Below are positions 1-64,000 of a stretch of 64,000 bases of DNA, piece by piece. Each line of letters opens with the position of its first letter. Position 1 is the first letter of the stretch. The notes under the pieces were generated by a model that saw only the letters and a program-made list of their open reading frames with translations, was not told the DNA's origin and ran no database searches. Origin of the DNA: Tribonema minus (taxonomy: Eukaryota; Sar; Xanthophyceae; Tribonematales; Tribonemataceae); contig JAFCMP010000520.1 in assembly GCA_017506865.1 (NCBI GenBank), positions 434,001 through 498,000 on the forward strand, written 5' to 3'. The position numbers and the translations under genes were made by a program.

Positions 1-52
1 GCGCTCCGCCATCAGCGCGCGGCGCCGCCGCGCCAGCTGGCGCAGCCGCTTC
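1..52 (-). CDS. Unidentified coiled-coil gene, exon 18 (partial, cut by window edge)
   Basis: Acceptor GCGCGCAG at 54-53. It continues the phase from exon 17 as KRLRQLARRRRALMAER and is open to base 1. A near-identical acceptor-side echo lies exactly 160 bp away at 161-212. Confidence 0.7.
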
Positions 53-1729
53 CTGCGCGCGCATTTGCATGGTGTGAAATCAGCTCGCGTCCCAGATCGA
101 CTGGGTCGAAAATGTCCTGAAACATGGTTGAACTTCAAGGTCAGGTTCAAGGGCGTCCGCGCGCTCCGCCGTCAGCGCGCGGCGCCGCCGCGCCAGCTGG
201 CGCAGCCGCTTCCTGCGCACGCGCGCGCGTGTGGTGCAAAATTGGCAGATTGACTGTGAAGGTGAAGTGGCAAGACTGTTTCAGGCACAAATGAACTTCA
301 CATTCGGGTTCACGAGGTCCGCCAACAGCGCTCGTTGACGCCGCTGCGCCGGCTGGCGCAGCCGCTCGTGCGCGCAAACACGCGGTGCACAAACAGCGCT
401 TCACATAAGCACTCCACAAGACTTTGTCCTTCCTTCTGGCGCAGGAGAAAAGGCAGCTGACGCAGCCGCCTTGCGCATGCACACGCACAATGACCTCGTG
501 TTCCCGGACAGTACTGAGCAGCAATGAGGAACATTTGTCGGTGGAAGTCTTGCTGTTTTTTCGTACTCTGCAGTGGGCGCGCAGCGGTCACGCAAGCAGC
601 GCTCGGCATCGCCTGGCGCCCATGGCTGGGAGCACGCTGCCTCCCGCACGTAGCCGCACCGCGTCGCATGGCACGCGCACGCGTCAGGCGCTGTACTCTG
701 CACGCCTAGGATTAGGGCTAGGGCTTGGGCTTAGGGTTAGGATCAGCCCTAACCCAGACCATGCACTGCTGTGCTAGGCCCAGGGCCGTGTGCCCGTGCC
801 CGATGCCCGGAGCGCGCGAACAGCGCGCGCGAGCTAACATAATGAGAACGTGCATCAGTGCATCTGTCCGCACGGCGCATGGCCGTAACGTCAAGTTCCC
901 TTGTTGTCACCTGCTGTGCTGCCTGCGAGTGCGTCCCTGCCCCGCCCCTCGACCGGCAGCACACACAAACGGCGTCGTGCGCGTGCTGAAGCAGTTCTGA
1001 CAGCCATCAGATGAATGCGCGCAAGTGGCACCGCACCTGCAAAAGTACTTACAATTGGGGTTACAGTGGTGAGGGCTTGCGGCCAGGCTAGGTCAGGGAT
1101 GACCCGAAACCCTAGCCCTGCTCTCAACCCAGGGTACAGTATCATGTCGCTATACACTGGTGCTTTCCTGAAGCCCATGACGCGCGCAAACTGCTAACCC
1201 TACAGTAACCCTAACCCTCATCCTAACCCCAACCCTAACCCTAAGTGCAGCACGTCGCGCGCATTCCGCAACACCTGAAGCCCATGTTACGTGCAAACAG
1301 CTAACCCCACAACCTCAACCCTACGGCAGCACGGCACGCGCGCAGTCCGCAATACCTGAAGCCCATGACGCGCGCGAAGAGCGCGAGCGTGTCCTGGAAG
1401 TGCGTGCGGCGCCGCGCGTCGTACGCGCGGTACGTTAGCGGCGCGAGCCGCTGCGTGGCGTTGTGCCAGCCGAGCGCTGCCTCAGGGGTAAGCGTCTCCG
1501 GCCCCGGCTTGGCGGCGGCGGCACTGCTGCTGCCGGTGCCGGCGGTGGCAGTGGCGGCGGCGGCGGCGGCGGCGGCGACGTCCAGCAGCTCGTCCTTCTC
1601 CCAGAGGACACCCTGTGGAGGCAATGTCGCATGTACATGGGGGTGGCGAGAACGTGGTAGTGTATGCGGAGTGCTGTTTGCGGTGACTGCACCTTTCAGC
1701 CTGCCGACTCTGGGCAGTGTTGGCGTTGC

Positions 1730-1760
<31 letters not shown>

Positions 1761-4700
1761 GCTGATGACGGCGGTGGCAGCGGCTGTGGCCACTGGTAAG
1801 CCCTAAATAGACTGCCATCAATTGCGTGTAGTCCTACATCAAGCGTACATTGCGCACTGCGCAGCGCGCACCCAACATGTTTGCGACAGCAGGTGAGCCG
1901 AAATAAACCCCATTACCCCTCACCTCAATATTTGCCGCTAGCCATCCCTCGCCCCAAGCGTCAGCCTTGCAGAGCCAGGCATTGTTGTGCACCCCAATCA
2001 TATCCCGACCCTAACCCTGAGGTGCTCAGCTAGGCCCTAACCTAATGACCGCAACTAACACCACATCCCTAACACCTGGTTCCAGAGTTGACGTCACAAA
2101 CGCAGCCTTTCCGCCCCCATCAAAATTGGCTCTGAGGGTCAGGATGAGGGTTGAGTTCGGGGCTAGGGTTGAGGTTTGCGGCTCGCCTGATGCACGATGC
2201 CCTCCTCATCAAGGTCGACACTGACACTACAGGTCAGAGATAGAAGAGGGATAGGAACATTGCTAGGGTTAGGTTTTCCCTGTTAGGATTAGGTTTCACG
2301 CGTGGCGCCAGGCAGATGCTGACTTTCACAACCAGGGACAGGATCAGGGTCGAATACCAGCATCGGGGTTTGCGTCACTGTCCGCACAAGGCCCGCCTCC
2401 TTGAGGTCTAACGCAGTGTCTCAGCAGTGCGGTGGGGGGCGCAACGACTCGTCCCTTCTCTCAACACTCCACGCCCGCTTTCCTGGGTCAGGGTCAGGGC
2501 TGAAGTTCGAATGAGGTGGGAGGAGGCCTAGGGTTTGTGGCTCGCCTGGCGCACGACGCCCGCCTCCTTGAATTTTTGAATGCGATGCCGCAGCAGTACG
2601 TTGAGGGTTTGTCGCGATGCCTCGGCCCTTCTCTCCGCGCTTGACGCCCGCTTTCCGGGACTAGGGTTAGGGTCAGGGCTGGAGTTGGGTTTTGGTAGGT
2701 TTAGGGCCCGGGTTCGCAACTCACCTGGCGCACGACGCCCGCCTCCTTGAGGTTGACGCGGTGACGCAGGTCGAACTGGTACACCATGGACGCGTCATCG
2801 AGGTCGTAGAAGAGCGCGTCGGCGTCAGCGCCGCGCGCCATCGCAAAGCGCTCCTTCTCCAGCCGCAGCCGCTCTGCCTCCACCGCCGCCAGCGTCATCT
2901 GCGTCGTCGACGACACGATGGTGAAATTGTCGCGGTTGAGGCTGGTGTCATGGCGGCTGTGTGCGAGGTGCAGCTGTGACGGCAAAAAGGGCACTGCAAT
3001 GTGAAATTGAAGTGTCATCGCGTAGCGCTCCTCCTCCAGCCGCAGCCGCTCGCTGCGCCTCCACCGCCGCAGCGGCACGACAGCGTTATTATCTATCGCA
3101 CGATTAGACGAATGTGATGGTGGCTGTGTGCGAGGTGCAGATGTGATGGTGAAAGCAATACTGCAATGTGAAGCTGAAGTGCCATGGCGCAGCACTCCTT
3201 CTCCACTCCGCGTCCACCGCCGCCAGCATCGGCCGGCGACACAACGGCGATGTTGTCCCTCTTGAGATAAGTGTGATGATGGACTGTGCAAGGCTCCGCT
3301 GTGACAGTGAACACAATTACGACGTGACCTTGAAAGCTATGTGCAGCTCTGCCGGGGGGGGGGGGGCGCAATCAACACTTTGAACATGTGGTTTGTGCAG
3401 AGCTGAAGTTTCACCAATCACTCACCTGCCCCGGTGACCTGTCTGCGAGTGCGAATCGGCGGCGCCCCGTTGGATGCGCGGTGCACCGCCCGCAGCGTTC
3501 TTCAGGATGTACAGTCAATGTCATTAGGCAAGTTGGAACATGAGACGGTCCGAGGCTCGGTGCATACATACCGTAGAGGTAGGGCACAGTCCAGTACCAG
3601 GGGTTTCTCCAGCAAGTTCTGGCAAGTTCTGGAAGGTTCTGGTGCCAGTTCTTGAAGGTTCTGGTGCCGCCACGCAACGGCAGGTTCCCGCTGGCCCTTG
3701 CTCACGTGTCAGCGATAGCACCACTTGTTCTTCTCCCACCTCGAGGCGCCTTTCAACTTCAATCTTGTAGTAAGTCTGCACAGCTGAAAATGCGCGAAAC
3801 GCTCACCTGCCCCGGCGACCTGTCGGCAATTTCAACGCGGTGACGCACCCCGTTAGACGCGCGGTGCGCCGCGACAGCGCTCGCCAGCTCCAGCTCGCAC
3901 CTCATTTATTTTTCATGCGTATGGGCTTTTCACAAAGCCATGTGCAGCTCTGCGGGGCAGCTATTGACTTCAAACTTGTAATCAGTGCGCACAGTTGAAG
4001 TTGCACAAATCGCTCACCTGCCCCGGCGACCTGCTACAAGTCAGTGTGCACAGTTGAAGTTGCACGAATCGCTCACCTGCCCCGGCGACCCTGTCAGCAA
4101 GTTCAACGCGGTGACGCGCCCCGGACGCGCCGTGCGCCGTGACAGCGCTCATCACTGCGCACACTTAATGTCATTAACAAGGTTGAAATATGAGATGGTC
4201 CAATACCTAGTGCATACCCTAGGGGTGCGGCACGGCCTAAGCTGTGGCAACTTTTTGAAGGATCTGGTGCCCCCACGGAAGGTTTTCCATGGCCCTTGCT
4301 TACGTGTCAGCGATAGCACCACTGATTCCTCTCCCACCTCGAGGCGCCTTCAACTCGAACCTTGTCGTACGTGTGCACAGCTAAAGTTCAATAGATCGCT
4401 CACCTGCCCCGGCGACCTGTCGGCAAGTTCAACGCGGTGACGCGCCCCGTTGGACGCGCGGTGCGCCGCGACAGCGCTCGCCAGCGCGGGGTCGTCGCCT
4501 GTGCCTACCCCCGCGCGCTGCAGGGGGTTGTCCGAGAGTCCCGTCAGCTCGGCGCCACACGACGTGCACCGCTGCCCCTTGCTGCAGATTAAATTGGGGG
4601 AAAGCGGAGTGCGAAGCGCAGCGGAATGTTGAAGTTTGCGCAGAGAGAGGCGTGTGCTGCAGGAGGTCGTCCGAGAGCCCTGTCAGCTCGGCGCCGCAGG

Positions 4701-7188
4701 ACACGCAGCGCTGCCCCTTTCTGCAAATCAGAGTGCAAAGTGCAGTGTGCGCGAACTGCAGTCAGACGTTGAAGTTTGTTTTTTGGTGCCTACCCCCGCA
4801 CGCTGCAGGGGGTCGTCGGAGAGTCCCGTCAGCTCGGCGCCACACGACGTGCAGCGCTGCCCCTTTCTGCGAATCAGAGTGCAAATTGCAGTGAGATGTA
4901 GAGGTTGGCGGAGAAGAGGGTTAGGGTAAGGGTCAGCGTTCAGGGTTAGGGTTAGGTAAAGGTCAGGGCTAGGGTCAGTGCTGCAGGGGGTCGTCCAAGA
5001 GTCCCGTGAGCTCGGCGCCGCACGACGTGCAGCGCTGCCCCTTCCTGTAAATCGGGGAACAGCACAGTGTGAAATGTTGAATATTGTGGGATAGGCAGAT
5101 TGGGGTTCAGGAGAGTGTAAAACGTAGTGAGATGTTGAAGTCTGCGGGATAGATGGGTTAGGGTTCAGAGTGAGGGTAAGGGCTAGGGTTAGGGCTAGGG
5201 TTAGCGCTGCAGGGGGTCGTCCGAGAGTCCCGACAGCTCGGCGCCGCACGACACGCAGCGCTGCCCCTTTCTGCGAGGCAGAGTGCGATGTGCGGTGATA
5301 TGTACATGGAAGTTGGCGCGGAGAAGAGGGTTAGAATTTAGGGTTAGGGTTCGGTTTAGGGTTAGTGCTAGGGGTAGCGCTGCAGGGGGTCATCGGAGAG
5401 TCCCGTCAGCTCGGCGCCACACGACGTGCACCGCTGCCCCTTTCTGCAAACCGCGGGACAGCAGAGAGTGCGAAGCGCAGCGGAATGTTGAAGTTTGCGC
5501 GGAGAAGAGGGGTTAGGGTATAGCGATAGGGTTAGAGCTAGGTTTATAGTCAGCGTTAGGGTCAGCGGGATGGACAGGCTGCTGTCTCAAAGTCCCGTCG
5601 GGTCGATGCCGTGCGATACGCATCGCTCGCCGCCCTGAGAGTTCTAGCACAATCCCTTATGAAAGCGGAGGGAGGCCCAAGCCCGCATGCCTGCCCCAAA
5701 CCCTAGCTCTAAACCTTTCAAAGGCGCGGGGCAGGCCAAACCCTGCGTCCTCACTCGTCACACCCCCCTTGCGTGACGTCACGAGACGTGCAGTGGACAA
5801 GCAGCGTCTGACCGTCGCAACTGCCCCGCCGGTGCCACAGACACTTCAACTTCAACTCACCCCGATGTGCCTCCCCACGCGGCGGCGCGCGCGTGCACGC
5901 AGCGCAACTTCAGCTCACCCTGACGTGCCAACTTCGACTCACCCCGACATGCCTCCCCACGCGGCGGCGCGCGCGTGCACGCAGCGCGCCGGCGCCGCCA
6001 CCGCGAGCTCAAAGCCGGCGATGCGCAGCGCGGCGCGGCGCGCAGCGGTGCCCATGCGCCCCTCGCGCGCCGCCGCCGCTGCCGCCGCCGCCGCCGCCTC
6101 CGCCGCCGCTGCCTCTGCCGCCACGGCAGCAGCGCCGGCGGCAGCGGCGGCGTCCTCCTGGTCGCGGCGCTTGGCGAGCGCGGTGCGCCTCTTTGCGTAC
6201 TCCTTGGCGATCTGTGCGTTGAGTGCGTTCCGTGACCTTGGGTTGCGGCTGAGTGCAATGTGAAGTCGGAGCGTACTCGTTGTGTACGCGCACGGCCCCA
6301 GAATTTTATGTACAAGTGCGCGTACCTTGCGATCTGCGTCGCAGAGCGCATTCCGTGACCCTTATTGGGGCGGAGCGCTGAGATGTGAAGTTGGAGCGTC
6401 GCTGCCTTATATCACGGATGAATTGAGACGCATGAAAGAAGAGCACCACACATGCAACACGTGGACGGAAGGGTGCAGTGACGAGGGTACCGGTGCCCTG
6501 AGGCCTGGTGCTGTGGGAACGTAGAGCTAGGGTTAGGGTTTGACGCAGCAGCACAGCTCAGCGGCACGGCTCGGCCCGTGGCGTTGCACTGCCACCGAGC
6601 GCATAAATTCAAGAGTGGTTGCAGTACAGACTCGAGCAGAGAGCATGAGCCACGCTGGTCAGCCTACCCTAACCCTAACTCAAATCCTAACTCTAAACCT
6701 GACCCTACCCCTAACCCCAACCCTAATTCTGGGGCCGGAATCAGGGTGCAGGTCAGGGCGAGGGTTTTTCAGCTGGGGGGGTGGGTTACCGACAGTTGAC
6801 CCAACATTGGTGAGCAGCCCTCTACCCCTATCCCCAACCGTAATCCTGATGCCTGCTGTTGACGCGCCTCCGCAAGCATGCCTGACCCTGACTCTAACCC
6901 TAACCCTAACCCTGATCCTAACCCTGGCGCCCCCATCCGCAATCATCCTCCCAGCCCTCAGTGAGACTGTCACGGGGTCTGGCCCTCGCAGCGCGCTCCG
7001 CACCTGCAGCACCGCTCAGCGCGCGTACGCCTCGGCGCACAGCTTGCGGCCCCAAAGTTCACGAACGAGTACTTGTACTTGAGTAAGAGAGCTTGTACGA
7101 GTACCAGCAACAAGTAAATGACTTGTTATGTATCACCGCAACTGTGAGCATCTCGCACCTGCAGCACCGCTCGGCGCGCGCACGCCTC

Positions 7189-7220
<32 letters not shown>

Positions 7221-14451: not shown

Positions 14452-14499
<48 letters not shown>

Positions 14500-35188: not shown

Positions 35189-35219
<31 letters not shown>

Positions 35220-38676: not shown

Positions 38677-39456
38677 GTACGAACTTCAACTGAAGTAAGA
38701 CTGAAATCCGCGGACGTTGCACGCACTCCCAGTTATGTCTGCTCTGTCACGGCACAGTCAGGTTTCCGCGCCTCCGTGCTCATGAGCTGCGAATGCCATG
38801 CGTACACTTGGCACTCGCATGCAGCGCCAGTGCGCCACCAGGCATTCCTCCCCCCCCCTCCTGAGCCCCTTGCCTTGCGGCTACACCGACGCTGTAACAT
38901 GCAGGCATCACTCAGCTGCTGCTGGAGGCTGGCGCCGACCCCGGCGCGCTCTCCGCGACGCAGCAAACGCCGCTGCACGGGGCGGCACGCGGCGGCGGCG
39001 GCGGTGGCGGCGGCAGCGGCGGCGCGGCGGCGCTAGCCGCGTTGCTGCTGCGCGCCGGCGCGCCGCTGCACGCACGCGACGCGCACGGCAGGACGGCACT
39101 GGATCTCGCCGTCGCCGGCGGCGCGGAGGCCACGGTGCGCGTGCTGCTGCTAACGCACAGCTGTGCAGACGGCGCCGCTAGCACCGCCGCCGCTGCGGCG
39201 CCGCCCTGCCAGCAGGCCTGCCACCAGCAGCAGCAGGGCGGCGGCGGTTGCAGCCCCGGAATGAGGCAGCTGCTGCAGGCGGCGCGGCTCGGTACGCGCG
39301 CCGCCGCCGCCGGTGCCGCCGACTTTGATGTCAACTTCCCGCTGCACGCTGCTGCGGCGCAGGGGCGCGCCGGCGCGCTGCAGGCGCTGCTGGCGCAGCA
39401 CAGCGCTCTGAGCGCCAGTGACAATCGCAGCGGTGGCAGCCGCGGCGGCGGCGGCA

Positions 39457-39491
<35 letters not shown>

Positions 39492-45289: not shown

Positions 45290-45779
45290 TTACGCCCACG
45301 CTGCCGCATCATCGGCGTCCATCGCCGCGGCAATGGCACTTGCTGCGGCAGCGGCTGTGGCAGCGGCGCCGGCAGCGTCGTAACGCTCTGTGCTGCCGGC
45401 TTCAGCATCAGCGGCGGTTGCGGCGGCAGCGGCGGTGGTGTGGCCAGCATCGGTAGGTGATGCGGCGGCTGCTGCGGCTATGCCGGCAGCAGCGGCGACG
45501 GCGGCAGCCGCGGAGGCAGCGGCGGCGGCGGCGGCGGCGTCTGCCGCGCCGCTGTTAGAGCTGGATTCGCTGCCGTCAAAGCTGACGGAGGGCGTGTCAG
45601 TGCTCTGCAGGGAGCATGTGGCGACGTTCCTGGTAGACGACGTGAGTGCGAGGGCCTTCTTGCTGAGCGCTGCTGCCGCTGCCTTGGGGTCGTCGCACGC
45701 GTTGACCTCTTCAATCTCCTCGACGCACGCCACGATCTCGGCGATGGCGTCCATCATGTCGCGGCCGCCGTACTTGGGG
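45290..45779 (-). CDS. Glycosyltransferase, last exon
   Basis: NPKYGGRDMMDAIAEIVACV, an acidic helix, Ser/Thr-rich stretch and an Ala-rich tail ending AMDADDAAAWA and a stop. The acceptor CACGCAG follows long C-runs (G on plus, 45790-45815). Confidence 0.8.
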
Positions 45780-51700: not shown

Positions 51701-54700
51701 CCCAGGTCTGCGCAGGGCAGCGCGGCAGCGCTCAGCATAAGTGCGCGGAGCGGGGCAGCTTCGACATTGGCTCACAGTGCATGGTCTCCAATTTAGATCA
51801 AGACATTATGCTACTTCGTTTCATTTGTCCGGAACACTTCTGATATGCTCAGAGTTTATCATATTAACCTTGAAGCGATGTATCTGTATCATTTGTGCTT
51901 GATGGATTGAACGCGTGGTTCAAATGGTTCAAATCACTTGCCCACAAGGCTTTATATTGAGGGTGTCGGGTAGATGGAGAAATACATGGGTCTGTGAATC
52001 ATTCGAGGGCATTCACAGCGAAGCACAAGAACTCAGGTCATGCCAAGGCGAGCGCTGACCGGACACCCACGTGCTAGACACGGTCATCTGGGACATCTTG
52101 CCAAGACATGTGACTGACCCCCATTGCTCACTCTAGCCGCTCACATGAAGGGGGGAGGGGAGGGGATGTGCACTTTCAATCAGCGGTTGAAAAGTGCAAA
52201 GACCTGAAAGTCAGCATCATTTATCATGACTTGCAGCAGGGTGCTTTATTTCTTGCACGTTGGTTGAACTACTGCTGCAATAAACGCACCAGACTGGACA
52301 ACAGAAAGAAATATATGGGAACGGAAGCAAATACTCTCAAACAATAGCAAAGAAGGCACAGACTTGAAGCTCACCCCATCTGTTCTGGCGGAGGTGCCAC
52401 TCGACGTGCGTCAGCGGGAAGTCCTCGTACACCGCAATCTCGGGCGCTGCGGCACAGGGCACGAGCACTGCTGTGAGTTTGGCGCAGGGCAGGGGCTGCG
52501 AGCGCATCACGATCACTGCGATAAGGCGCCGTACAGGTCTACCCCTGAGGGCGGCGGCAATAGCGAATGTCTCGTGTGGTGTACACACGAGTCCTGACAA
52601 CTATTATACGCGTCAGTGTGCATGCGCAGTTTGCGTTTGCTGCCGTTTTGTTCTCTTGTGCAGAGGAGGAGGCTCTGTCACATTTTGTCCAGGTGTTGTC
52701 AGTGCCGTCGCGGCCCGGCACCTGGACGCTACCTCCGCGTGCCTGCCACGCGTCTGCTGTACAGGGGCCAATGGTGCTTATGCGATGGCATCAACAGGGC
52801 CCAAGCGCACGGCAAGACGTTGCACAGCTGCATGGCTCACCCAGCATGGCCTTTATGACGCTGCTCGCTATTATGTCGTGGCTGATGAGGTCAAATCCAG
52901 CAGCCAAATTGACAGCCCCTATTTCTGCAATATGATGTCAAAGCAGTGGTGGTAGCGCAGGCAAGCATGCGCGTGTGCGCGCACACTCGCGCCTCACCGA
53001 GCATGGTCTTCATGACGCTGCTCTCTATGATGTCGTGGCTGATGAGGTCGCGCGGAATGCGCTCCCCCTCCTTGGTCAAGCCTGTCTGCGGGTCCCACCC
53101 CAGCAGCGTCTGGTTGTACGTCGACCTGGGCGGCACGTGTCGCGGGGGGGGGGGGGATGAAGGGTTAGGGTTAGGCTCAGGGGTCTAGGGTTCAAACTTC
53201 AAGTATGAGATGTTGAAGCTCTCCGCAAATTATGCAGAGAATGGACTACGGTTACCTGCAAGTATGTGATGGTGAAGCTCTCAGCACATTTTGCAGACAA
53301 CAAATTAGGGTTGGGGTCACCGTTCGGACTCACAGGGGTTACGAGTGGGTACAGGCAATGGCGTTTGGGCAGCAGCTCAGCGCACGCTCGCATCGGTGGC
53401 GGCGCGCGACATCCTTGCTCGGTGCATGAATTCAGTGCTCAGTGCCACGCTGGCGCTCCTGGCATCGGTTTTTGTGCTCATGGGGTGTGAGCATGCGTCC
53501 AGTGGCACCGCCGTATGTCCAGGTCTAGTATTGCCTGTTACGATTGGCAGGCCAAGCAGATGCCTTGGACGGCGGCGGCACGCCCCAGCAGGGGCGGTGT
53601 CACGGCTCACCAGGAGCTGTGGTGCGGCTAACAAGAGGCTGTGGCACGGCAAAAAGCAGGCGCTGTGGCACCGCTCGACAGGCTATCCTGTGGTGATGCT
53701 CTGCTCTCACCCTCCAGGCGATGCATCGACGGAACCTCCGTCTGGTGCTGAAAATCACCAACATGTCCACGTCCGACGTGCTAACCTCTGTGGCATAGCT
53801 CAACAGGGGGGTGCAGCATGTCTCGACGGGGGCTGTGGCACGGCTCCACGGGGTGCCGCGTGCGGCTGTCCTAGCAGTTCATTGCTTGGAATTAGGGATA
53901 GGGCTAGGGATAGGGCAAGGGTTGTCGTCATGGCAGCCTGGCAGCGCGCAGCGGAAGCGCCTGAGAAGGAAAGCCTCGCTTTCTCTGTCACTCATATGAT
54001 ATGATAAAAGTGTACATGCCCCTAAAGCCGATCAAGTACGGCCACTGAACATGACCAAGGTCATTGTACAAGTGCCACACTAGGCGCATGGGCGCACCAC
54101 CAATTACTTACCAAAGCGACACTGAGCAGGCAGGCAGGTAGGTACGTACCTGCGGATGATACCCTTGCCCCAGAATGTTGCGGAGGGGATGAAGACGCGC
54201 TTCCAGTCCGCCAGCTCGTTGCCCAGCACCTGCAGAGTGGGGGGTCGCAACAGGGGAATCACTCACTCACTCACTAACTCAATCACTCACTCACAGATGA
54301 ACACGCGCTCTCAGTCGCGAGCTCGTTGCCCAGCAGTTGCAGCAGCAGCGCCCGTCACTTGTGAATGAGAGCGCGGCTTTGGTAAGGTTACATTAAGGAA
54401 CAAATCTCTTTATTGTATCGTCTGAAGTAATTTTCTTTTGTTTTGTTTTTGTATTTTCTGGGCAGTTTTTCATTCAAGTATTTCAGTGGGGCCAAGCAAC
54501 TAGGTCTATGTGGGTGCATGCGCTGCAATTTGAAGCTGGCTGGCCGAGCGTGGACGACCACGCGCTGCCGGTCCGTACGTGCGTAGCCCAGCGCCTGCGT
54601 CAGTGCGCAGCTACAATTTACAATTATGTTTTTTAGCAGAAAGGTGGGGGTATTGGATGCCTCGAGGGTTGCCCTGAATGTAGAGCGCTGAACCCCAGCT

Positions 54701-57700
54701 TGAGCACTTGCTTAAAATCATTACCCTTAAATCAACCTACCCCTGACTATGACCCTAGCCCTGAGCCATTCGTAATTCCAGGCGGGTGAGTGCTGGTGCA
54801 TACTTCAAAGGTACGTTTCCTCACATGCGGATGCACGTACTTAGTGAGGCCATTGCCGGTATGATTTCAGCGCACATGGACTCACCTGACCTTCTGTCTC
54901 AACAGCACTTCAACACACAAACTTTGAAAGTGTGTCACGCGCGACGTGCCAAGCACACAATGCTGCTCAACCTTCATTTTGTCTGTCGAGCGTAGAGCAG
55001 ACATCAAGTACCCGTGCACTGCTGCAGTGCCTCTAATAAGTTATTACTTCCAGTGTGATCATGACAGTAAATCCACATGCACTTGCAACATTATATCAAC
55101 TGAAACATCTATACTTCAAGGCGAACATACCCACCTCGTTGCCGACCCGTGCACCTGGCACTGGATGCCACAGAGATGTACCACCTGTCAAAGCTACATT
55201 CGGAACGCATATCATTGTTATGTGTGAAATGCATGCTTCAATGTACGTCAAAATTATACATCATTTTTCCTTAGGTGACTACAAGTACCAAAACTTGGCG
55301 CCCCTGGAGGTGTAGTAGCTCTCGCCGCCGCTGATGGCGCGCCGTAAACACAGCTTCGCAATGAACCATGAATTCATACTTTTGAAGGACATGAATCCAC
55401 GCGCGTACCTGGAACTTGGCGCCCATGGATGTGTAGTAGCTATCACCGCCATTGACGGCGTGCCAAAAACACGTGCTTCGATATGCACTGCAAATTTACA
55501 CTTTGAGGTACATGAATTTGCAAGCAAAACTCATAAAAGCACATGAATTCGCCCGCGTACCTGAAACTTGGCGCCCATGGAGGTGTAGTAGCTCTCGCCG
55601 CCGTTGACGGCGCGGCGGAAGCACTTGGGGAAGGGCGTGATGGCGGGCTGCAGTATCTCCAACTCGGGGTATGCCGCAAAGAAGTTGTTGGCCGTGTTGA
55701 AGAACTCAGGGCTCAGCCTGCGCAGTTAGGGTTACGGTTAGGGTCAGGGTTGAGGTTGAGGTCAGTAGGGTTACGGTTAGGGTCAGGGTTGAGGTTGAGG
55801 TCAGTTGGGTCAGGGGGTTAGGGTAAGTTAGCGCCAGCGAGCGTGTTTTATGCAAATGTCATGTATGAGCTCATCTGCACGGCACAAGCGCTGGTACTAG
55901 GGCTGGGAATGCAAAGAGTGGCGTGCTTGCAAGCCACAGGATCCAGAACTCTTTGTTGGTGTCGTGAGCCGTGTACACACACCGTTGGTCTCAAGGAGCC
56001 GTGATCGCAGCTCTTGCAACAACGGGCGGTAGCGTGTGTGAAGAAAATTGTGCGCTGCGGTCAGATGGTCGCCAGGCCGCCAGTGCAAGTCACGTTGTCA
56101 AGGTGGACATGCCGTACTTCAAGTACTTCAAATTACAAAATGATTGAAACAGGATCTGGTGCAGGACCTCACTGAGTGCATCGTGACCAGTTGATGCGAG
56201 GGGGAGCTAGCTAGGAGGCTGGTGCATACAATTCAGCCGGCGCCACAGAGTCTGGAGGTGTGGCATATTGTCAGCTGATCAGCACTACAAAAGTGATAAA
56301 GTTGAATAAACCTGGCTTGGAGTATTTGTGTGAACATAACCCACGCAGCAGCATTTTGCATATACATACATATTGACGGGTCAGAGTGCAAAGCTCACCA
56401 AGAGCGTCAGATTGCCCTGCGTCCAAAGGAGTGTCACCCACGTTGGCAGCATTTAGGGTTCGCATTCTGCGCAGATCACAGCCGCGCTTTGATGCAGGAG
56501 TACTAGTAGATCAGAAGTGACGCACGTGTGTGCACATTGCATTCAGCCCGACGCGTCGTTGCACAGAGGCAGTTGCTGTTGGCTTTGTGATACTCGTTGC
56601 AATATGGACCTTGCTCACATCCTTCCGCAGTGTTTAATGCAGCATCAGCCCTCATCAGTTGCGTAATACCTGATGACATCCTTGCGACTACATGCTGTGA
56701 AATGGCCGTTACATTACGGTTACGCTTCATACTCACATGTTGTCGCGATCCATGATGGCCAGGAACTCAAAGTCGCTGCCGCAGAAGAATTCCAAGTCGG
56801 TGGCGGGGTCGAAGCACAGCCCGGAAGGGTGGTTGGACTTGATGTCCTGCACGGCAGTTTTGTGTCACAGTGCTCAGCGTAACACTTTTTTATGCAGATG
56901 TTTCATAACGAGGGGAGACACTGCGTGGTTCACCCCCACGGTTGAAAGCGGCACGGCGGCGTACATCATCTTAAGCAGAATCTGTTGTATGCGGATACCC
57001 ATCGATTTGGAACTTATTCATAGCATGCCCCCTGGCTGCTTCAGTATATACTCGCAGCAATGGCGCGTCTGCGGCACGACCCTGACCCTAACCTAACCCT
57101 AGCCCTAACCTAAGGTTACTCACCCTGTAGAGCATGGGCTGCTTGTACCCGTTGAGCAGCATGATGAAGTCCAGGTACTGCAGAGGCGAGCAGGACATGG
57201 CAAGGGCGCAAAATGAGCGCTGCTGCACTGTTGCGCACATCAGGTCCGCTTTTTCCTGGGCAATCCAGAGCCCGCTTCATGCAACTGCGCCAAAAGTAAC
57301 TCAAGAGGGCTGCCAGTGGTGCACTGCTATCGTACGTAACTTCTGACTCTAAGACTCTCAACGCGATGCAGCATGCATATGCCAAGCATCTGGCAGATGG
57401 TGCAGCTTGCTGGGGCCACACTGAGCACAAGACCACGCCCGTTGACCAAACTGATGCCTGAATAAATAGTGCCAGTGCCTTGAAAGCCCGATCAACCGGC
57501 AGACCTAACAGGCAGGCGCGCTTCACGCTTCAAAGCCATATTTCTGCAGATGCATATGCAGTCTTTGCATTTACAGGCGCACCCGTTCGTATCGAGCGTG
57601 CATGTACGTACCTGCCCGTACTTGAACAGGATGGTGCGCGTGCGGCGCACGTAGTAGCAGCGGCCGCCCTCCTCCGCGTAGCGCGCATTCCACGCGCGCA

Positions 57701-60700
57701 CGGCGTTGTGCTCGTGCGCCGCGAGCGCCAGGTCCTGCGTGCCGCTGCACATTGCGAAAAACGTACAGAATTCTTATGGATAAAAATTGGAGTTTCTTCT
57801 GTGGTTTCTGGATTAGATTTTTTTTTCAAATCACACCTTATTCTTAAAAAAAGAAAAATAATGAAAATGATTACTCTGATTGGCACGTTCTGCCGCGGAA
57901 GCAGCTCCGGCCGTGCAGACTGAGCGCTGCGCTCGTGCGCTGCTAGCGCCAGATCCTGCGTGCCACTGCGCGCAGCGTCAGAACAACACAGCGGTACAAC
58001 AGTTGCTCAAGGAAAAATCATCAAACTGTTGATGTAGTTGGCAGGTTCAGCCGGGGAAGCAGCTCCGGCCATGCAGCGCAGGCTCAGAACTGGGCGCTGT
58101 GCTCGTGCGCCGCTAGCGCCAGGTCCTGCGTGCCGCTGCGCGCATCGTCAAAACGACACGGCGGTACAACGGTTACTCACATTATACGTACTGCTGAGTC
58201 TCGGTCAGCGGGTGGGGCAGAAAGCACCGAAAGCTGTTGTCAAGCTCGCTGCCAGAGTCTGCGTGTACCCTTGTGGTGACAAAGTGTATCAGTGCTCATT
58301 GGCGATGGGTCTCAAGCGGGAGCTCTCCCCCCACTACATCCCTGTCCATCTATCGGCCACCTCTGGCCTTATACTTTTGAGGGCTGAGATGCGCCGCGGC
58401 GGAGTACACAATATGGTTCTTCAAAGTACATGAGATTACGATCATCACTACGTCGCAGCGCGTCGCACGGCCCGTGCGCTGCTGCAGAACGCAGCGCGGC
58501 CGCACACAGGCTGCTTACTTTAAGACGATGCGGCATGCAGGACAGGACTGCGGCACATGCTTCAAAGTCATGCTAGCGAAGGGCAGCATGCTCATCACGT
58601 ACTGCTGGCTGCGTGCGCGAATGCACCGCCGGCGCAGGCCACGGTGCCGCAGTCTCGACGGCGGTGATCTCATGCGTGCGAGCAAAGGCGCGACGCGCGT
58701 TTCGCGCCACCTACTGCGTGTGGCGCAGGTATTGCGCCTTCAACGAGTTACCCTCATGCGAACAACCCAAAAACGCACAGGGCAACAGCGGCGGTCTTGC
58801 GCGTGCAAGTGCGAGTGTTGAACTGTGTGATCATCCAAGCGCGTGCCGCCCACCTGAGCACGACGTAGGTGGCCTTCTTGTACTCCTGGTTGAGGCGCCA
58901 TGACGCCTGCATGAACATGAGCGTCTCCTGCAGTGCTCAGCAGACATGCAAGGGGGGGGGCGGGGGCAGCGAGCAGTCGCGCAACATTAGTACGGTTGTA
59001 GGCATGAGGGCATTTATGGCGCACAGGGCCACCGCACAGCAGCGTGACGGCAAGAGTACGACTGCACAAAGTAGTAGTGAGCGGTCATACAATTCTTGAG
59101 CACTGCTGCCAGAACGGGGGAGGGGGGGGATGACATCGTGTGTGGTCCTAGTCCTAGCCCTAGCCCTAACACGTGGGCTGCAGTGAAGACACGTCAGCAT
59201 TGGAGTCCCGTGACAGGCACAACTTCAAAAAGTTTATTTTATGATGAAAGTTTTATCGTGACGCAAGCTCAAGTGCGTGCACGCGCTTGCTTCAGAAGAA
59301 ATCTCGCTCAAATGCGTGTACGCGCTTGCTTCCTGAGAAATTTCTGAGGCGGCAGCCATTGTCAGCATCTGATGGATGACGTGCTCATGACTGGATCAGG
59401 GTATGGGTTGCAATCATATTGTCAGCACCAAGCTCAACTATCACAAGCATGCCCTGGCAGCATGCGACATGAAGGCGTAGTCAAACTATTGCGTCCCCTG
59501 TCCCTGAAGCGGTACTACGGGTCCTAACCCTAACCGCGAACCCAATGATCAACACGCTACCTGAGCACCATCGCACTACTAGCATTGGGAGCTGTGCGAC
59601 AGGCACAGCATCAGAGTTTTTTCTCGTCGTGATGCAAGCTCAAGTGCATGTACGCGCTTAAAGGAAGTCTAGGATATGGACAGCCAGCCCTCCTCAGCAT
59701 CTGACGGATGACGTGATCATGACAAGGTTAGGGGGTAGTGCTAGAATCAGGTTGTCAATTAGGGTTAGGTTTAAAATCAGGTTGTCAACATTCACCGCGG
59801 AGCTGGACGTCTCTGAAGCAACACAGGTCGAGGGCCCTCAGCTTTAACCTGGTTGTTATCATTCCTGAGCATCAACACGGCGAACGTACCTGCACGTCGG
59901 CGGGCTTGGTGCTCTTGAGGCAGTACACGACCAGGAACTTGTTGGCGCTGCCCGGCGTCATGGGCTCGCACGTGATCTGCAGCAGCGCTCAGCACAATAG
60001 ATCACCGTCAACATGAGTGATACGGCGCGGAAGGGTTTGCTGATGAGGCCTGCAGTGCTATTTGTCGGCTCAATGATGCAGAGATGGATACTAGATGCTG
60101 TGAGTATTGACCCATGCAGTGACGCTCAGCTACCAGCACGTGCTGGACAAGCCGCCGCTGTGCATATCTGCTGAAAGTGCACTTGTTTTCGGTCAGGGCC
60201 CCAAGGTAGGCCAGGTGACCTATGCAATCGTGAAATTTACTCATATGCAATCGTGAAATTTACTCATATGCAGCAGCCTACTGCAGTCTGCAGCTTGTGC
60301 TCATAACTGCCGCCGACCACTGCCTGCAGCATTAGCAACGATGACACAGATGGAATGCATTCAGATTTAGATTGGGTCGACAGCAGCGTCAACCCCAACT
60401 TGAACTTGCATGAAATGATGCGGGCTCGCATTGGCCGCCATCTGCGCTTACAGGAGGGGGCGGTGGTAATGCAGATCGTGAGAGTTGTGTGAACTAGAGT
60501 CTGAGTTATCAGCAGCTTCAACCTCGACTTGAATTGCGACCGGGCTCACTTAGCTGCCTTCCTGTGCTTGCAGCAGAGGGCGATGATGATGCAGATGGCG
60601 ACAGTTGCGTAAAGCATGGTTGAGTTATCAGCAGCATCAACCTCAACTTGAACTTGCATCAGAGGGTGATGTGGGCGCACCTTGGCCGGCTTCCTGTGCC

Positions 60701-63461
60701 AGGCAATGACAATGCAAGTGGCGTCTGCATTGAAGTAGAGTTGAGTCACCAGCGTTAACTTCAACTTCATCAGAGGGCTCACCTTGGCCGCCTTCCTGTG
60801 CTTGCAGCAGAGGGCGATGATGATGCAGATGGCGTCCGTCGTGATGTCCGCCACTAGGATGTTGGTGATGCACGTCATGACGGCCAGGATGACCTGTCAG
60901 CGTCACCAGTAGAGCAGGGAGTCAGCAGCGCTCAACATGTTACACGCAGTTGAAGTGCTTGTGAAGTTTGCATGGGAGGTGCGCGTGCACCCCTCGAGTG
61001 ACCGACGTTACTTGTGATCGTGTCACCATCCCATGCTGTAAGTTTGCGCTTGGAGATACACCCGCCTGCCGCTCGCCAGCTACAAGGTGAGGAACCGCGG
61101 CAAGCGTGTCTCAACACGTACTCGCCATCAGATGCAGAGGCGGGCGATTCTTGCACCGCCACTGTCACGCCGTCCGGACGTTGGCGTGCTCGCACTCGGC
61201 GCTGCCCTACCACTCATGCGCAACAGAGCCAGCAACCGGGGTGATCGCGTCTCAAGACGTACTCACCATCAGGTGCAGCGCGGGGCGGTTCTGCTGCTCC
61301 TCACCCTAACCCTAACCCTAACCCTAACCCCAAACCCTAACTCTAACCCTCTCCAGCACTGCCACTGTCACGCTGTTTGGACGTTGCTCGCACTTAGCTC
61401 TGGCCTACCACTCATGCGCAACAGGGCGAGCAACTGGGGCGAGCGCGTCTCAAGCCATACTCACCATCAGCTGCAGAGGGGGGCGGTTCTTCTGCTCCAG
61501 CACCGCCAGCAGCAGCGCGCACAGGTTGACGGCGTACGTGAACCACCACACGGACTCGAAGACGGCGCCGCGGCCGCGCCACTGGTCGCTGGGCTCGCTG
61601 CTGTCGACCGCGCCGCTGCGCTCCGCCTGCGCGCGCGGCACGATGCATGCGGTGAAATTGAAGTTGGCACTAAACACGCGCGGCACGATGCTGTGGTGAA
61701 GTTGATCTTGGGACTAAGCCCCAGAGAAGTTGGCACAAATACTGGCTTTGGTACAATCCGCATGAGCTTGGCGGTGGGGGCGGGTGTTGCTGTGCAAGTC
61801 ACAATGAGGTTTCTGCGTGCGTAGTGAGGTTTGTACATGCGTCGCGAGGTTTTATGCATGCGTAGTGAGCTTTCTACATGCATAGTGGCGTTTCTACATA
61901 CGTAGTGAGAATGTGAACCTGCATCTCCGGCGCCGCCTCGTGCACGGTGTCCACCTCGTGCACCACGCTTTTTCACCCTAGTAAACATTCCGCAGTAATA
62001 TGCTGCGCAAACAATGAAGTTCCACATGTGTGCGTCTGTGCTAGGTAGGCAGGTATCACCTGTATCTCCGCCGCCGCCTCGCGCACAGTGTCCACCGCGT
62101 GAACCACGCTGCTGTACGCGCTGCCGGTATAACTATAAGTATACACTACACTCTGATACGCTGCGAATGCTGTGAAGTTTCTACATGCGCAGTGAGGGAC
62201 CTAAATGTGCACCTGTATCTCCGCCGCCGCCTCGCGCACGGTGTCAACCGCGTGAACCACGCTGCTGTACGCGCTGCCGGTGATGTTGCCCAGGAGGCTG
62301 GCGGCGCGCGTGTGCCCCCCCGCGCGGGAGTGACTGCCGAAGCGGCCGTGCTCAGCACGGTGAGGCCACTCCCTGCTTGCAAATTCAGGGGGTAGGGGGT
62401 AGGGGGGGGGGGGGGAGGGGGAAGACACGCATGGCGAAGAGCTGTGTCAGCAGCTATGCTGCAGGAAAACATCAAGTGAGAGTGGTGTGGCTGAGTATGT
62501 CAGGGCGGTAAGTGCGTGCCTGTGCGGGGGTGACTGCCACATTGGCAGTGCTCTGCGTGTTATGGCCACATGAGGGCATACGCCGAACAGCGGGGCCACG
62601 AGACTGCATACGTCTTCAAGTGCCGTGTCGACTGCAACACGAGCCGCCCAGATGCATTACCGCCAGAAATTTCACGACGTGAGCCACGTCTGCAGCGGCG
62701 TACTTCAAGTTTGCTGAGGAACAGCAACAAGAGCGGCTGCCAATTGAACCTTTGCTGCAATATGCAGCCCTGACCCTAACGCTAACCCTAAGCTGTCACT
62801 TACGTGTGGGGCTTGGCGAGCGGCGAGGGCACCGCGCTGCGTGTACCCCGCACGGGCAGATCGTACTCCAGCACAGTGCTCGGCTGTAGCTGGAAGGACA
62901 CCTGGCGCGCATGCGACTGCAGAGGGGGGGGGGGGGGGGGGGAGGGGACACAACGCATACTCCTATCTTACAACTCTTTCGCGCGTGCATGCGCGATGCA
63001 GCGGCGAGCACTTGCATCACAAACAGCAGGCTCGTCATTGCACACATGCAGTCCATCGTGTACCAGAAAAGTATTGCCCGAGTGTGTTCAGTTTCCACCG
63101 TTTCTTGGTTACAAAAACAGCCCAGATGATCATCAGAACGCTGGGGAGGCCTACCGTGAACGACAGCAGTGCTCAACTAAGCTGAACTTCATTTTTGTAT
63201 ACGGCCAACTGTACCATGCCGATGTCACTCTCGACGGGGGGGCACAAGATCCCACTTCAATTTCATCAAGCGCACACTCAAAAACGTACCTTTCGCACCC
63301 TGGCGGTGGCAAGTGACGGCAGCAGCGCCGCGCGCTGCGGCGTGACCGTCTGCGTGACGGACTGCACGTCGCCGTCACTGCGCGCGAGTGCAGGGAGCCC
63401 AGCGGCGCACACGATCGGCGTCAGGCACGTGAATAGGGCGCACAGGCGCGAGCGGCAGTAT
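45290..63461 (-). CDS. Family-2 processive glycosyltransferase, MdoH/OpgH-like, membrane-bound (5' end uncertain)
   Basis: Twenty minus-strand exons: 63461-63290 (uncertain), 62916-62804, 62333-62213, 61626-61465, 60893-60783, 59976-59890, 58927-58854, 57744-57612, 57177-57124, 56846-56737, 55717-55561, 54229-54150, 53125-52998, 52446-52375, 51707-51623, 50784-50639, 47718-47609, 47295-47134, 46404-46238 and 45779-45290. Without the first exon the protein has 853 residues. Two N-terminal membrane segments precede a catalytic domain in family order: YVVLSGTQD (first-Asp region), YYVRRTRTI plus KYGQ, FLAIMDRDN (the DxD), FWGKGIIR, LISHDIIESS (catalytic Asp432) and LRQNRW (the QxxRW-type motif). 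Some five more membrane helices and an Ala-rich tail follow. Families with this layout polymerise glucose from UDP-glucose at a membrane; the product here is not known. In MdoH the first motif reads SDxxD, here SGTQD. A retroelement-like ORF sits antisense in the 50638-47719 intron. Confidence 0.85.
46137..46245 (-). repeat. Short donor-side echo of glycosyltransferase exon 19
   Basis: AGGCACATCACTCACTTC occurs at 46135 and 46223; only the second joins the coding exon. Confidence 0.6.
46238..46404 (-). CDS. Glycosyltransferase, exon 19 in window (membrane helices)
   Basis: MELLLAAAALVAILAANWGA to TGTPPDE, two helices. Preceded by TGCTGAGCGCTG-like sequence and CTGCTGCAG. Donor GTGAGT, phase 2. 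Confidence 0.82.
47134..47295 (-). CDS. Glycosyltransferase, exon 18 in window
   Basis: IHTIYFGVVDIFYGSARCAR to SFCKYTW, including KVITGNTKWRTFQ, the usual cytoplasmic loop before the last helices. Acceptor CCGGCAG, donor GTGAGT. Confidence 0.82.
47609..47718 (-). CDS. Glycosyltransferase, exon 17 in window (membrane helix)
   Basis: GMYYLAIVVNVQIVLLPFVV to WKEKVMLQ. Acceptor GCGCGCAG, donor GTGAGA. An acceptor-side echo at 47904-47945 lies beside the inserted ORF. Confidence 0.82.
47956..49746 (+). mobile_element. Retroelement-like ORF (596 codons) antisense in a glycosyltransferase intron
   Basis: A single unbroken frame from ATG at 47956 to TAG at 49746. The N-terminal half is Ala/Thr-rich with an acidic run (QEDDDDDWEAYADEICRK). 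The C-terminal half has GAMAWMSVLPAANDRPGAAP, a Cys/His cluster (CPWRCSDVSPTSTHAISC then HIRGHNATH), GYRADTVIDPG, GIVLDTSVRAPT and WAFVPFVQESYGRLG. That order (WL..LP, zinc-like CxxC...H...C, RHN, R-x-D, LDxxV, F.P.VxExxG) resembles the region after the reverse transcriptase in some non-LTR elements, where a PD-(D/E)xK-like nuclease lies. I see no reverse-transcriptase YxDD core here, so this is a fragment or a domesticated tail. Terminal repeats and a target duplication were not seen. Confidence 0.55.
50639..50784 (-). CDS. Glycosyltransferase, exon 16 in window (membrane helices)
   Basis: CHVRAFYAAYFAKMASAVYS to FTFLQSELL. Acceptor CACGCAG, donor GTGAGT, phase 1. The 2920-bp intron after it holds the antisense retroelement-like ORF. 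Confidence 0.8.
51623..51707 (-). CDS. Glycosyltransferase, exon 15 in window (membrane helix)
   Basis: DLGDIIISKYLFPFTFGLLP to LLSRFSF. The donor is probably GTGGGT, which gives the phase 2 end the next exon needs; GTGGCA four bases on breaks phase. Confidence 0.74.
52375..52446 (-). CDS. Glycosyltransferase, exon 14 in window (RW motif)
   Basis: APEIAVYEDFPLTHVEW then HLRQNRW, the (Q/R)xxRW motif that holds the growing chain in processive enzymes. Acceptor TGCCGCAG, donor GTGAGC. Confidence 0.83.
52998..53125 (-). CDS. Glycosyltransferase, exon 13 in window (catalytic Asp)
   Basis: RSTYNQTLLGWDPQTGLTKE to LISHDIIESSVMKTML. The Asp in SHD is the expected catalytic base. Acceptor CGCCCAG, donor GTGAGG, phase 1. 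Donor-side echo at 52820-52895. Confidence 0.85.
53590..53860. repeat. Imperfect GCTGTGGCACGGC repeats in an intron
   Basis: Variants of GCTGTGGCACGGC recur near 53638, 53660 and 53830. A minus frame at 53700-53780 was tested as an exon and does not fit the phase. Confidence 0.5.
54150..54229 (-). CDS. Glycosyltransferase, exon 12 in window
   Basis: VLGNELADWKRVFIPSATFW and GKGIIR, equivalent to the GHNAIIR-type acceptor motif. Donor GTACGT. Acceptor-side echo at 54296-54345. Confidence 0.83.
55276..55470 (-). repeat. Donor-side echoes of glycosyltransferase exon 11, 2 copies
   Basis: 55276-55335 and 55407-55470 repeat the exon end that encodes GESYYTSMGAKF, with point changes. Both keep a GTAC-type donor. 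Confidence 0.82.
55561..55717 (-). CDS. Glycosyltransferase, exon 11 in window
   Basis: MLSPEFFNTANNFFAAYPEL to YYTSMGAKFQ, including LEILQPAIT, matching the conserved ...IQ... strand after the DxD. Donor GTACGC. Two donor-side echoes at 55276-55335 and 55407-55470. Confidence 0.86.
55725..55830. repeat. TTAGGG-like tandem run in an intron
   Basis: Two copies of a GTTACGGTTAGGGTCAGGGT block. The rest of the 55718-56736 intron shows nothing recognisable. Confidence 0.75.
56737..56846 (-). CDS. Glycosyltransferase, exon 10 in window (DxD)
   Basis: DIKSNHPSGLCFDPATDLEF to FEFLAIMDRDN. DRD is the metal and UDP-sugar binding DxD. Acceptor CGTGCAG, donor GTGAGT inside the codon after Asn. Confidence 0.86.
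57124..57177 (-). CDS. Glycosyltransferase, exon 9 in window
   Basis: 18 codons, YLDFIMLLNGYKQPMLYR. Acceptor CTCTGCAG, donor GTGAGT, phase 0. Confidence 0.8.
57612..57744 (-). CDS. Glycosyltransferase, exon 8 in window
   Basis: SGTQDLALAAHEHNAVRAW to YYVRRTRTILFKYGQ. Aligns with the SDxxD and RRR..K-GN segments of MdoH from memory of the family. Two acceptor-side echoes at 57925-57975 and 58085-58150. Confidence 0.85.
57920..58155 (-). repeat. Acceptor-side echoes of glycosyltransferase exon 8, 2 copies
   Basis: 57925-57975 and 58085-58150 repeat the exon start and acceptor (plus reading CTAGCGCCAGGTCCTGCGTG). Confidence 0.78.
58854..58927 (-). CDS. Glycosyltransferase, exon 7 in window
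   Basis: ETLMFMQASWRLNQEYKKAT then YVVL, leading into the first acidic motif. Acceptor GCACTGCAG, donor GTGGGC, ends in phase 2. Confidence 0.82.
59207..59725. repeat. Duplicated intron block, about 380 bp apart
   Basis: 59212-59395 and 59590-59722 share GACAGGCACA, CAAGCTCAAGTGC, GTACGCGCTT and TGACGGATGACGTG-type segments in the same order. No exon in either. Confidence 0.65.
59890..59976 (-). CDS. Glycosyltransferase, exon 6 in window
   Basis: ITCEPMTPGSANKFLVVYCL plus KSTKPADVQ, the first strand of the GT-A fold. TGCTGAGCGCTGCTGCAG precedes the exon. Donor GTACGT. Confidence 0.84.
60275..60745 (-). repeat. Donor-side echoes of glycosyltransferase exon 5, 3-4 copies
   Basis: Copies near 60670-60735, 60540-60605 and 60420-60480, with a faint one near 60285. 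Plus reading CTTCCTGTGCTTGCAGCAGA or variants. Confidence 0.75.
60783..60893 (-). CDS. Glycosyltransferase, exon 5 in window (membrane segment)
   Basis: VILAVMTCITNILVADITTD to CCKHRKAAK, second membrane span. Acceptor GCTGACAG, donor GTGAGC. At least three donor-side echoes follow. Confidence 0.82.
61100..61360 (-). repeat. Donor-side echoes of glycosyltransferase exon 4 plus (CCCTAA)n
   Basis: Copies at about 61105-61155 and 61245-61300 (plus reading TACTCACCATCAGGTGCAG). CCCTAA repeats at 61303-61345. Confidence 0.75.
61465..61626 (-). CDS. Glycosyltransferase, exon 4 in window (membrane segment)
   Basis: AERSGAVDSSEPSDQWRGRG, then FESVWWFTYAVNLCALLLAV, a membrane span. Acceptor GCGCGCAG, donor GTGAGT. 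Donor-side echoes at 61245-61300 and 61105-61155. Confidence 0.82.
61915..62135 (-). repeat. Donor-side echoes of glycosyltransferase exon 3, 2 copies
   Basis: 62058-62133 and 61917-61977 repeat the exon end (plus reading CACCTGTATCTCCGCCGCCG). The first is almost unchanged for 70 bp. Confidence 0.82.
62213..62333 (-). CDS. Glycosyltransferase, exon 3 in window
   Basis: THSRAGGHTRAASLLGNI to VDTVREAAAEIQ. Acceptor TCGGCAG, donor GTGCAC. Two donor-side echoes at 62055-62133 and 61915-61977. Confidence 0.77.
62804..62916 (-). CDS. Glycosyltransferase, exon 2 in window
   Basis: SHARQVSFQLQPSTVLEYDL to PSPLAKPH. Acceptor TCTGCAG after a long C-run (62924-62941 as G on plus), donor GTAAGT, phases 0 to 2. 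Confidence 0.74.
63290..63461 (-). CDS. Glycosyltransferase, first exon in window (5' boundary uncertain)
   Basis: Frame CRSRLCALFTCLTPIVCAAG to LPSLATARVRK, donor GTACGT, phase 0. It has no ATG and an in-frame stop lies upstream, so an acceptor such as CCCAAAG at 63462 is assumed and the true start is elsewhere. Confidence 0.45.
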
Positions 63462-64000
63462 CTTTGGGTCGCAATGAAGGTAGAGTGTAGGGTTCAGGAG
63501 CAAGCACTTTAATTTTCAAAGTGAGCGCTAGGGTTAGGGTCGGAATCAGTGTAAGGGGTAGAGCGACGCCGCGGCCAAACTCGGGCGTTAGGGCACTACC
63601 GTCAGGCCCAGCGCAGTAGTGCCAGCTCTATGGCACATTATAAATGACCTCCTGAACTGCCGTGCAGTGCCCGCTGCAGATGCGCGCGGGGCAGCGTGCT
63701 GAGCGCTGATGATTGCCGTCTGGCAGGCGCTGCGAGGCTGCAGAACGGCACTGGACAGCTCTACTTGCATGCCCCCCATCAGTGGTTCAACATGACACCG
63801 TGCCATGCCCTTCGCCTGTCACCAGCTGATGAAATTCAATATGCATAACCTAATGTGCATACTTCGAAGTATATGACAGCTGCCGCAGGCGCTTCGACAC
63901 TCATGAACATATGAACTTGTCGAGGTGCTTGTATCCTTGCAGTCGCTACCTACACACCCTTGTGCTGCCTGGCTGGGGTGCATCCCTGCTAACCGGCAAG
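63462..64000. other. Right-edge region, no supported exon
   Basis: May hold the glycosyltransferase 5' exon or promoter. A TTAGGG-like run is at about 63529-63540 and a TGCTGAGCGCTGATG motif near 63696. A 72-codon minus frame at 63588-63806 is unconvincing. Confidence 0.4.

Follow-up and report, generated by a model that had tools for sequence, protein, structure and literature searches.

Short tandem duplications arising from break repair are known in plants and primates, where they are direct, local, around 100 bp in length and subject to neutral decay. Tandem repetition may also involve the boundaries of exons, as with minisatellites whose units span a splice site, or with tandem exon duplication and mutually exclusive exons, where exon sequence is repeated in the neighbouring intron. 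A vertebrate case of intron gain by tandem duplication of an AGGT-containing segment is also known, and some introner elements display a nucleosome-sized spacing. Intron gain in the potato RdRp by tandem genomic duplication of AGGT-containing segments is described in PMC4974935, and large-scale change of introns by introner elements in PMC9860276.

Herein, a stretch of 64,000 nt from the xanthophyte Tribonema minus (C517:434001–498000 of a 158-Mb assembly of 554 contigs), hereafter the window, was analysed for echoes, by which we mean copies of an exon edge and its splice site that lie within the adjacent intron. The components of this pattern are of known kinds, and what is new is the density of the echoes, their common spacing and the strength of the intact decoy sites. 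Echoes resemble break-repair duplications in being direct, local, around 100 bp in size and neutrally decaying, but differ from them in being dense within introns and arranged in arrays with a spacing near 150 bp. Unlike boundary minisatellites, they affect many junctions of several genes, each with its own unit; no gene-wide minisatellite case of this kind was found in the literature as represented by titles and abstracts. Similarly, they differ from mutually exclusive exons in being nearly always partial and in lacking coding constraint.

With regard to intron gain by AGGT duplication, the likeness lies in a local tandem duplication that copies the sequence around a splice signal; the difference is that a new intron arises there, with ends that repeat each other, whereas here existing introns grow. 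The signature of such gain, intron ends repeating the flanking exon ends, was present in 1 of 60 introns in the window and in none of 87 in other pieces of the assembly, and on these counts intron gain was rejected. Introners, in contrast, are dispersed, whilst the tested echo array at 21550–22600 occurs nowhere else in the genome; genome searches with this stretch and with 31500–33700 disclosed, among the matches listed, no scattered near-identical copies that make up whole introns. No description of exon-edge echoes was encountered in titles and abstract openings of a literature that excludes most subscription journals, nor in the available part of PMC12730881.

Extent of the exon-edge echoes

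Gene models were generated by a small HMM gene finder, self-trained on the window together with 20 pieces of 10 kb from scattered places in the assembly, and are predictions made without RNA; they were obtained for 16 of the 20 other pieces, and in the window three genes were rebuilt. Gene A (1–24989, minus strand) retains 20 HMM exons and has many introns of 0.5–1.7 kb with many echoes. Pfam returned no match for its first 304 residues, and its designation as a coiled-coil gene is the label of a first-pass annotation, made from the sequence by eye of a model. Gene B (26172–45460, plus strand) is modelled as a PAS–histidine kinase–receiver gene (Pfam HisKA, HATPase_c, PAS_4 and Response_reg), to which ankyrin repeats (Pfam Ank) are linked by the HMM model only, and its 3′ end is uncertain, as it overlaps the 3′ end of gene C in the models. 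Gene C itself (45290–63377, minus strand) is modelled as a group 2 glycosyltransferase (Pfam Glyco_trans_2_3). Rfam gave no match in the window.

Exon edges were examined by aligning the terminal 40 bp at either end of an exon to the adjacent intron, with a score of at least 18 taken as a match and length-matched other introns as the null; 16 echo-like HMM exons were removed from the models beforehand. In the window, 46 of 130 edges matched their own intron, compared to 1.8 % for other introns, which upholds the first-pass proposal that introns hold copies of the adjacent exon edge and its splice site, matches to the own intron being far commoner than to others. Controls gave a single match for opposite exon ends (1/113), another for reverse complements (1/130), and 3 of 63 for exon middles (null 3.3 %). 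A catalogue built with queries of up to 60 bp of exon plus 30 bp of intron at each junction lists 116 echoes, which fall at 29 donor and 20 acceptor sites (49 of the 118 splice junctions) and occupy 35 of 59 introns, where the first pass had counted more than 80 at about 35 junctions. Three minus-strand exons of gene A that overlap gene B (26770–27333) are included in the 130-edge test and left out of this catalogue. The splice site is crossed by 105 of the 116 catalogued echoes, with a maximum of seven copies at one junction.

Beyond the window, the edge test yielded 22 matches for 174 edges in the other pieces, comprising 10 of 87 donors (null 0.6 %) and 12 of 87 acceptors (null 0.3 %), with controls of 2/133 for opposite ends, 4/87 for exon middles and 0/174 for reverse complements. 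Introns of at least 1000 bp carry an echo in 17 of 21 cases in the window and in 7 of 28 in the other pieces. A sample independent of the gene finder was assembled from 17 kinase and light-harvesting genes on other contigs, each with two successive Pfam matches, by searching the interval between these matches, some of which may contain more than one intron. Echoes, six copies in all, were present in 3 of the 17 intervals and at 4 of 34 edges, against 9 matches in 544 comparisons with intervals of other genes; the clearest case, L042, has echoes of both the preceding and the following exon. Within gene B, 8 of the 11 junctions judged to be supported by Pfam bear an echo by edge-test score. Since echoes are also found in the other pieces and in the homology-anchored genes, they are not confined to the window, which is approximately three times richer than the other samples. 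The echo pattern is genuine: local duplications that straddled splice junctions have left dense traces, now decaying.

Arrangement of the copies

On the plus strand, an array that illustrates the pattern lies at 31706–32009, where the exon end coding TVQALNHELRTPLQ is followed by its true donor after 31773, a junction supported by HisKA, and by two donor-side copies at about 31832–31887 and 31960–32009. A donor echo of exon 30154–30324 (30257–30523, echo junction 30495) retains an exonic identity of 0.98, and the exon ending at 32363 (ERCLRDAIDFCLPFAMLNE) is accompanied by a donor array at 32303–32893 in which several copies alternate with telomere-like blocks. Acceptor echoes on this strand include that of the exon starting at 33533 (33363–33593, echo junction 33366) and that of the receiver-domain exon starting at 36160 (35984–36213, echo junction 35997). 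The words AAGTTGAAGTTG and GTTGAAGT recur in the introns flanking echoes (e.g. 30865–31190 and 31785–31830), and are a possible intron filler motif.

The minus strand displays similar arrangements. An acceptor array at 21422–21990 belongs to the exon start ELRLAAEDLG..., with echoes at about 21760–21810 and 21934–21984, and exon 22742–22852 has a donor array (22397–22852) in which CTCAG/GTGAGT is repeated. Further donor copies accompany exon 12447–12637 (array 12084–12637, echo junctions 12263 and 12111) and exon 15755–15892 (15252–15892, with one junction at 15251). Exon 4404–4581 is flanked on both sides, by an acceptor array at 4404–5640 of about five copies 140–230 bp apart, together with telomere-like blocks, and by a donor array at 3426–4581 with echo junctions at 4076 and 3806. 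In gene C, the exon ending at 62213 has a donor array (61917–62280) with echoes 153 and 294 bp downstream.

Taken over the window and the other pieces, 144 matches are direct and 4 inverted. The spacing of successive copies forms one peak with a median of 153 bp (103 of 163 spacings lie between 100 and 200 bp), and first and second spacings within an array are correlated (Spearman 0.54, p 0.0002; permutation of within-array variance, p 0.065). In-register intronic homology, with a median of 77 bp, is displayed by 48 of 120 echoes, and these copies are thus duplications of DNA that spans the junction. A genome search with the 1-kb array at 21550–22600 recovers only its own place and neighbourhood, and one with 31500–33700 recovers elsewhere only the telomere-like part, among the matches listed. 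No allelic or paralogous copy with which the duplications could be dated was found for 21550–22600, nor for 31500–33700 among the matches listed. The direct orientation, local matches, correlated spacings and in-register homology all agree with the tandem duplication proposed in the first pass. The accompanying suggestion of intron growth fares less evenly: echo-bearing introns in the window are longer than those without (median 974 versus 373 bp), but for the other pieces (890 versus 649 bp) the correlation is not significant.

Origin and decay of the echoes

The best reading, to which we attach slightly better than even confidence, is that local tandem duplication is frequent in non-coding DNA and is made visible by the frozen exon. 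Segments of roughly 100–200 bp would often duplicate locally in tandem, perhaps through break repair with fill-in, replication slippage or unequal exchange. Where such a segment spans a splice junction the gene would survive, as one intact site of the pair suffices for the right mRNA, and an extra exon edge with its splice site would remain in an intron that is lengthened accordingly. The exon, being under selection, would provide a frozen standard against which its copies can still be recognised once purely intronic ones have decayed, and thus would account for much of the apparent restriction of echoes to exon edges.

This reading bears on the first-pass claim that duplication is tied to splice junctions, for which local copies were sought by alignment of 60-bp windows in introns of at least 400 bp, with low-complexity windows left out. 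In the window, such copies exist for 37 of 76 exon edges and for 80 of 788 intron interiors outside echo units (null 1/318); the corresponding figures for the other pieces are 18/116 and 189/2733 (null 0/607). Simulated copies of equal age that contain a frozen exon are detected 1.4–2.8 times more often, and after correction for this the junction excess is about 1.7–3.4 fold in the window and 0.8–1.6 fold in the other pieces, which have poorer models. We conclude that much of the echo pattern is general local tandem duplication which the frozen exon brings to light; some excess at junctions remains. The proposed tie to junctions is only partly upheld, by a residual excess in the window, and is weakened by the interior copies and by the near absence of excess elsewhere. 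Features that sit poorly with frequent general duplication are the mismatched exonic and intronic clocks described below, the short reach into exons, the 2–3 fold junction excess of the window and the high intron indel rate needed to account for the loss of similarity on the intron side.

Measurements of repeat cover by BLAST self-comparison, which misses some tandem pairs, show a flat profile of local direct repeats from the exon edge into the intron and a drop 60–100 bp inside the exon. By the same comparison, with the same shortfall for tandem pairs, direct cover in unannotated DNA of the other pieces is 0.100 and inverted cover 0.007, and the 1805 unannotated bases of the window have no repeat cover. 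Cover of exon interiors is uninformative, because its inverted component is nearly as high as the direct. Uniform duplication, as might be read from the flat profile, is questioned by the breakpoints, and the echo arrays themselves fill the intron. Counts of array anchoring (42 junction versus 3 internal in the window, 23 versus 21 in the other pieces) were unreliable and were set aside in favour of the 60-bp-window alignment, since the self-comparison had missed tandem pairs such as the 105-bp pair at 23433–23639. This pair, detected by Tandem Repeats Finder in a long intron of gene A, has 99 % identity and is probably the youngest of such size in the window.

A second account places the cause at the junction itself: duplication would start, or be preferentially kept, at junctions, from 40–80 bp inside the exon, and would recur, such that introns grow from their ends. 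We consider this unlikely, though well short of negligible. In its favour, exonic matches extend up to the junction in 125 of 144 cases (94/98 in the window, 31/46 in the other pieces), and their reach into the exon is mostly 40–80 bp, even for exons of at least 180 bp. A reach of at least 90 bp is seen for 8 of 125 copies, compared to 105/225 and 112/220 in simulations with uniform placement of 100–200-bp units; whole-exon matches number four, all to predicted exons of 27–49 bp. The excess left over in the window after correction is also as such an account would have it, but local copies inside introns, and the little or no excess in the other pieces, are not. In donor arrays, echoes differ from one another about 1.4–1.8 times more than from the exon (exonic part near the junction), as if each were derived from the exon; in acceptor arrays of the window the difference between echoes is no greater than that between echo and exon (32 pairs), such that derivation from the exon is supported for donor arrays only. 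Nor is decay with distance, as claimed in the first pass, supported. Where two copies are compared, the one lying closer has the higher identity in just 69/134 pairs (window) and 15/26 pairs (other pieces), on which grounds an outward increase in age was rejected, and identity over all window matches displays a weak trend with distance (Spearman −0.19, p 0.04).

Next in order, and likewise improbable, stands the possibility that the tandem duplications are old and that their exonic part has been refreshed by gene conversion from the exon, a lasting template kept by selection. The exonic and intronic parts of echoes do not share a clock: their similarities are uncorrelated (Spearman 0.03, n=120), whereas neutral simulations give 0.58–0.65, and all four simulated settings keep the correlation that the real echoes lack. 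Among echoes whose exonic identity is 95 % or more (n=18), the intronic score is 16.6 against 29–41 in simulation. The missing correlation would be accounted for by gene conversion from the exon, or else by copying that halts close to the splice site. Echo similarity also drops steeply just past the splice consensus, and mismatches are slightly clustered, with 9 of 75 echoes at p<0.05, but this clustering is weak (mean p 0.41). Moreover, no conversion is needed for the 48 echoes with clear intronic homology, where divergence is 0.131 in the exonic and 0.181 in the intronic part and the mean ratio fits a single age. Intronic parts that are short, together with rapid indels in introns, could produce a similar pattern, as the mean fall on the intron side is approached by an indel rate about 4x higher in introns than in exons, or by an overall intron rate of about 2x. 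Selection on the echoes as the cause of the steep fall is unneeded given the higher intron indel rate, and is contradicted by neutral decay.

A speculative combination of the two preceding accounts, with a small but appreciable chance of being correct, would hold that junctions are hot points at which segments of about nucleosome length (40–80 bp of exon plus tens of bp of intron) are recopied into the intron, with their exonic parts refreshed by conversion. Introns would grow in this manner, and the spliceosome would reject decoys of equal strength, for example by a rule of first donor and last acceptor.

That the echoes function as exons, or as regulatory decoys under selection, be it as cassette or mutually exclusive exons or as splice-control elements, is very improbable. 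As many as 16 echo-like segments had been incorporated as exons by the gene finder, which makes the first-pass statement that no echo has both splice sites and an intact frame too strong, but coding constraint is absent from the copies. Only 7 of 66 indels in the exonic parts are divisible by three. Single-base changes in 596 codons comprise 308 nonsynonymous and 280 synonymous ones along with 8 stops, close to the 10.6 stops expected when a neutral echo branch is combined with an exon branch that admits synonymous changes only. Change per codon position is 0.101/0.094/0.175 in the window and 0.145/0.122/0.191 in the other pieces. The copies left behind evolve as DNA free of constraint would beside a constrained exon. 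As indels ignore the frame and stops lie near the neutral level, the echoes are not cassette exons, and the first pass was likewise right in setting mutually exclusive exons aside.

At the splice sites themselves, GT is kept in 69 of 95 donor echoes and AG in 46 of 56 acceptor echoes, or, in 149 aligned copies, one or the other in 117, slightly above the 0.68–0.74 for other dinucleotides of the same alignments; splice dinucleotides are thereby hardly better kept than the rest. Scores, which are relative, the matrix having been built from predicted sites, nevertheless place the intact sites among real ones. Intact donor echoes have a median of 8.76, equal to that of predicted real donors and reached by 1.4 % of other intronic GTs, and intact acceptor echoes one of 8.10 against 8.64 for real acceptors, a value reached by 3.3 % of other AGs. 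About three quarters of copies keep their GT or AG, and intact candidate decoys score like real sites, in keeping with the first-pass expectation that echoes leave decoys behind.

Lastly, an artefact of assembly or gene modelling is scarcely credible, for although the HMM models were made without RNA and at least one edge is wrong (the acceptor at 30580 lies inside an echo, the true one being read at about 30710), 21 copies with an exonic identity of at least 0.94 still differ from the exon, clearly so on the intron side, and the echoes at homology-fixed junctions in 3 of 17 genes lie on other contigs.

The echoes point to a lengthening of introns without transposons, and the frozen exon edge allows duplication and decay of local copies in non-coding DNA to be timed. 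By score, the splicing machinery confronts decoys that look as good as real sites, and three neighbouring genes supply dozens of natural test cases in which a real site lies near decaying copies of equal strength. RNA sequencing can test directly how a true splice site is distinguished from decoys that almost match it.

Neighbouring repeats and gene families

Degenerate telomere-like (TTAGGG)n blocks number 23 in the window, in both orientations (e.g. 1194–1253, 5156–5214, 33649–33723, 55720–55806 and 61288–61350). By comparison of positions, every one of them falls in a predicted intron, and such introns account for about three quarters of the window. The 20 other pieces contain 16 more, and five shuffles of the window contain none. 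TTAGGG-like arrays occur at the ends of many contigs, and one window block matches such contig-end arrays; the blocks may be scars left by break repair. Within an intron of gene C lies a dispersed element of about 360 bp (49470–49832), for which a first look at the genome gave 1277 candidate copies. The 40 copies scored are 99–100 % identical, and the element is probably young and of high copy number.

The light-harvesting (LHC) gene family sampled above is sizeable, with 92 exon-level matches in the genome. For two of its exons, L038 and L040, the best PDB relatives are multi-domain 9vfj chains of up to 1048 residues, which suggests polyprotein-like LHC genes; the next-best matches are chains that we take to be of cryptophyte-type or other LHCs, and one further LHC exon searched gave no match. 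Amongst the sampled contigs, C90 (L016), C179 and C21 have rearranged stretches in common at 72–95 % identity, and the kinase genes L002, L006 and L007, on C112, C21 and C90, are 73–78 % identical. The shared stretches and related kinase genes are possibly inserted virus or selfish DNA.
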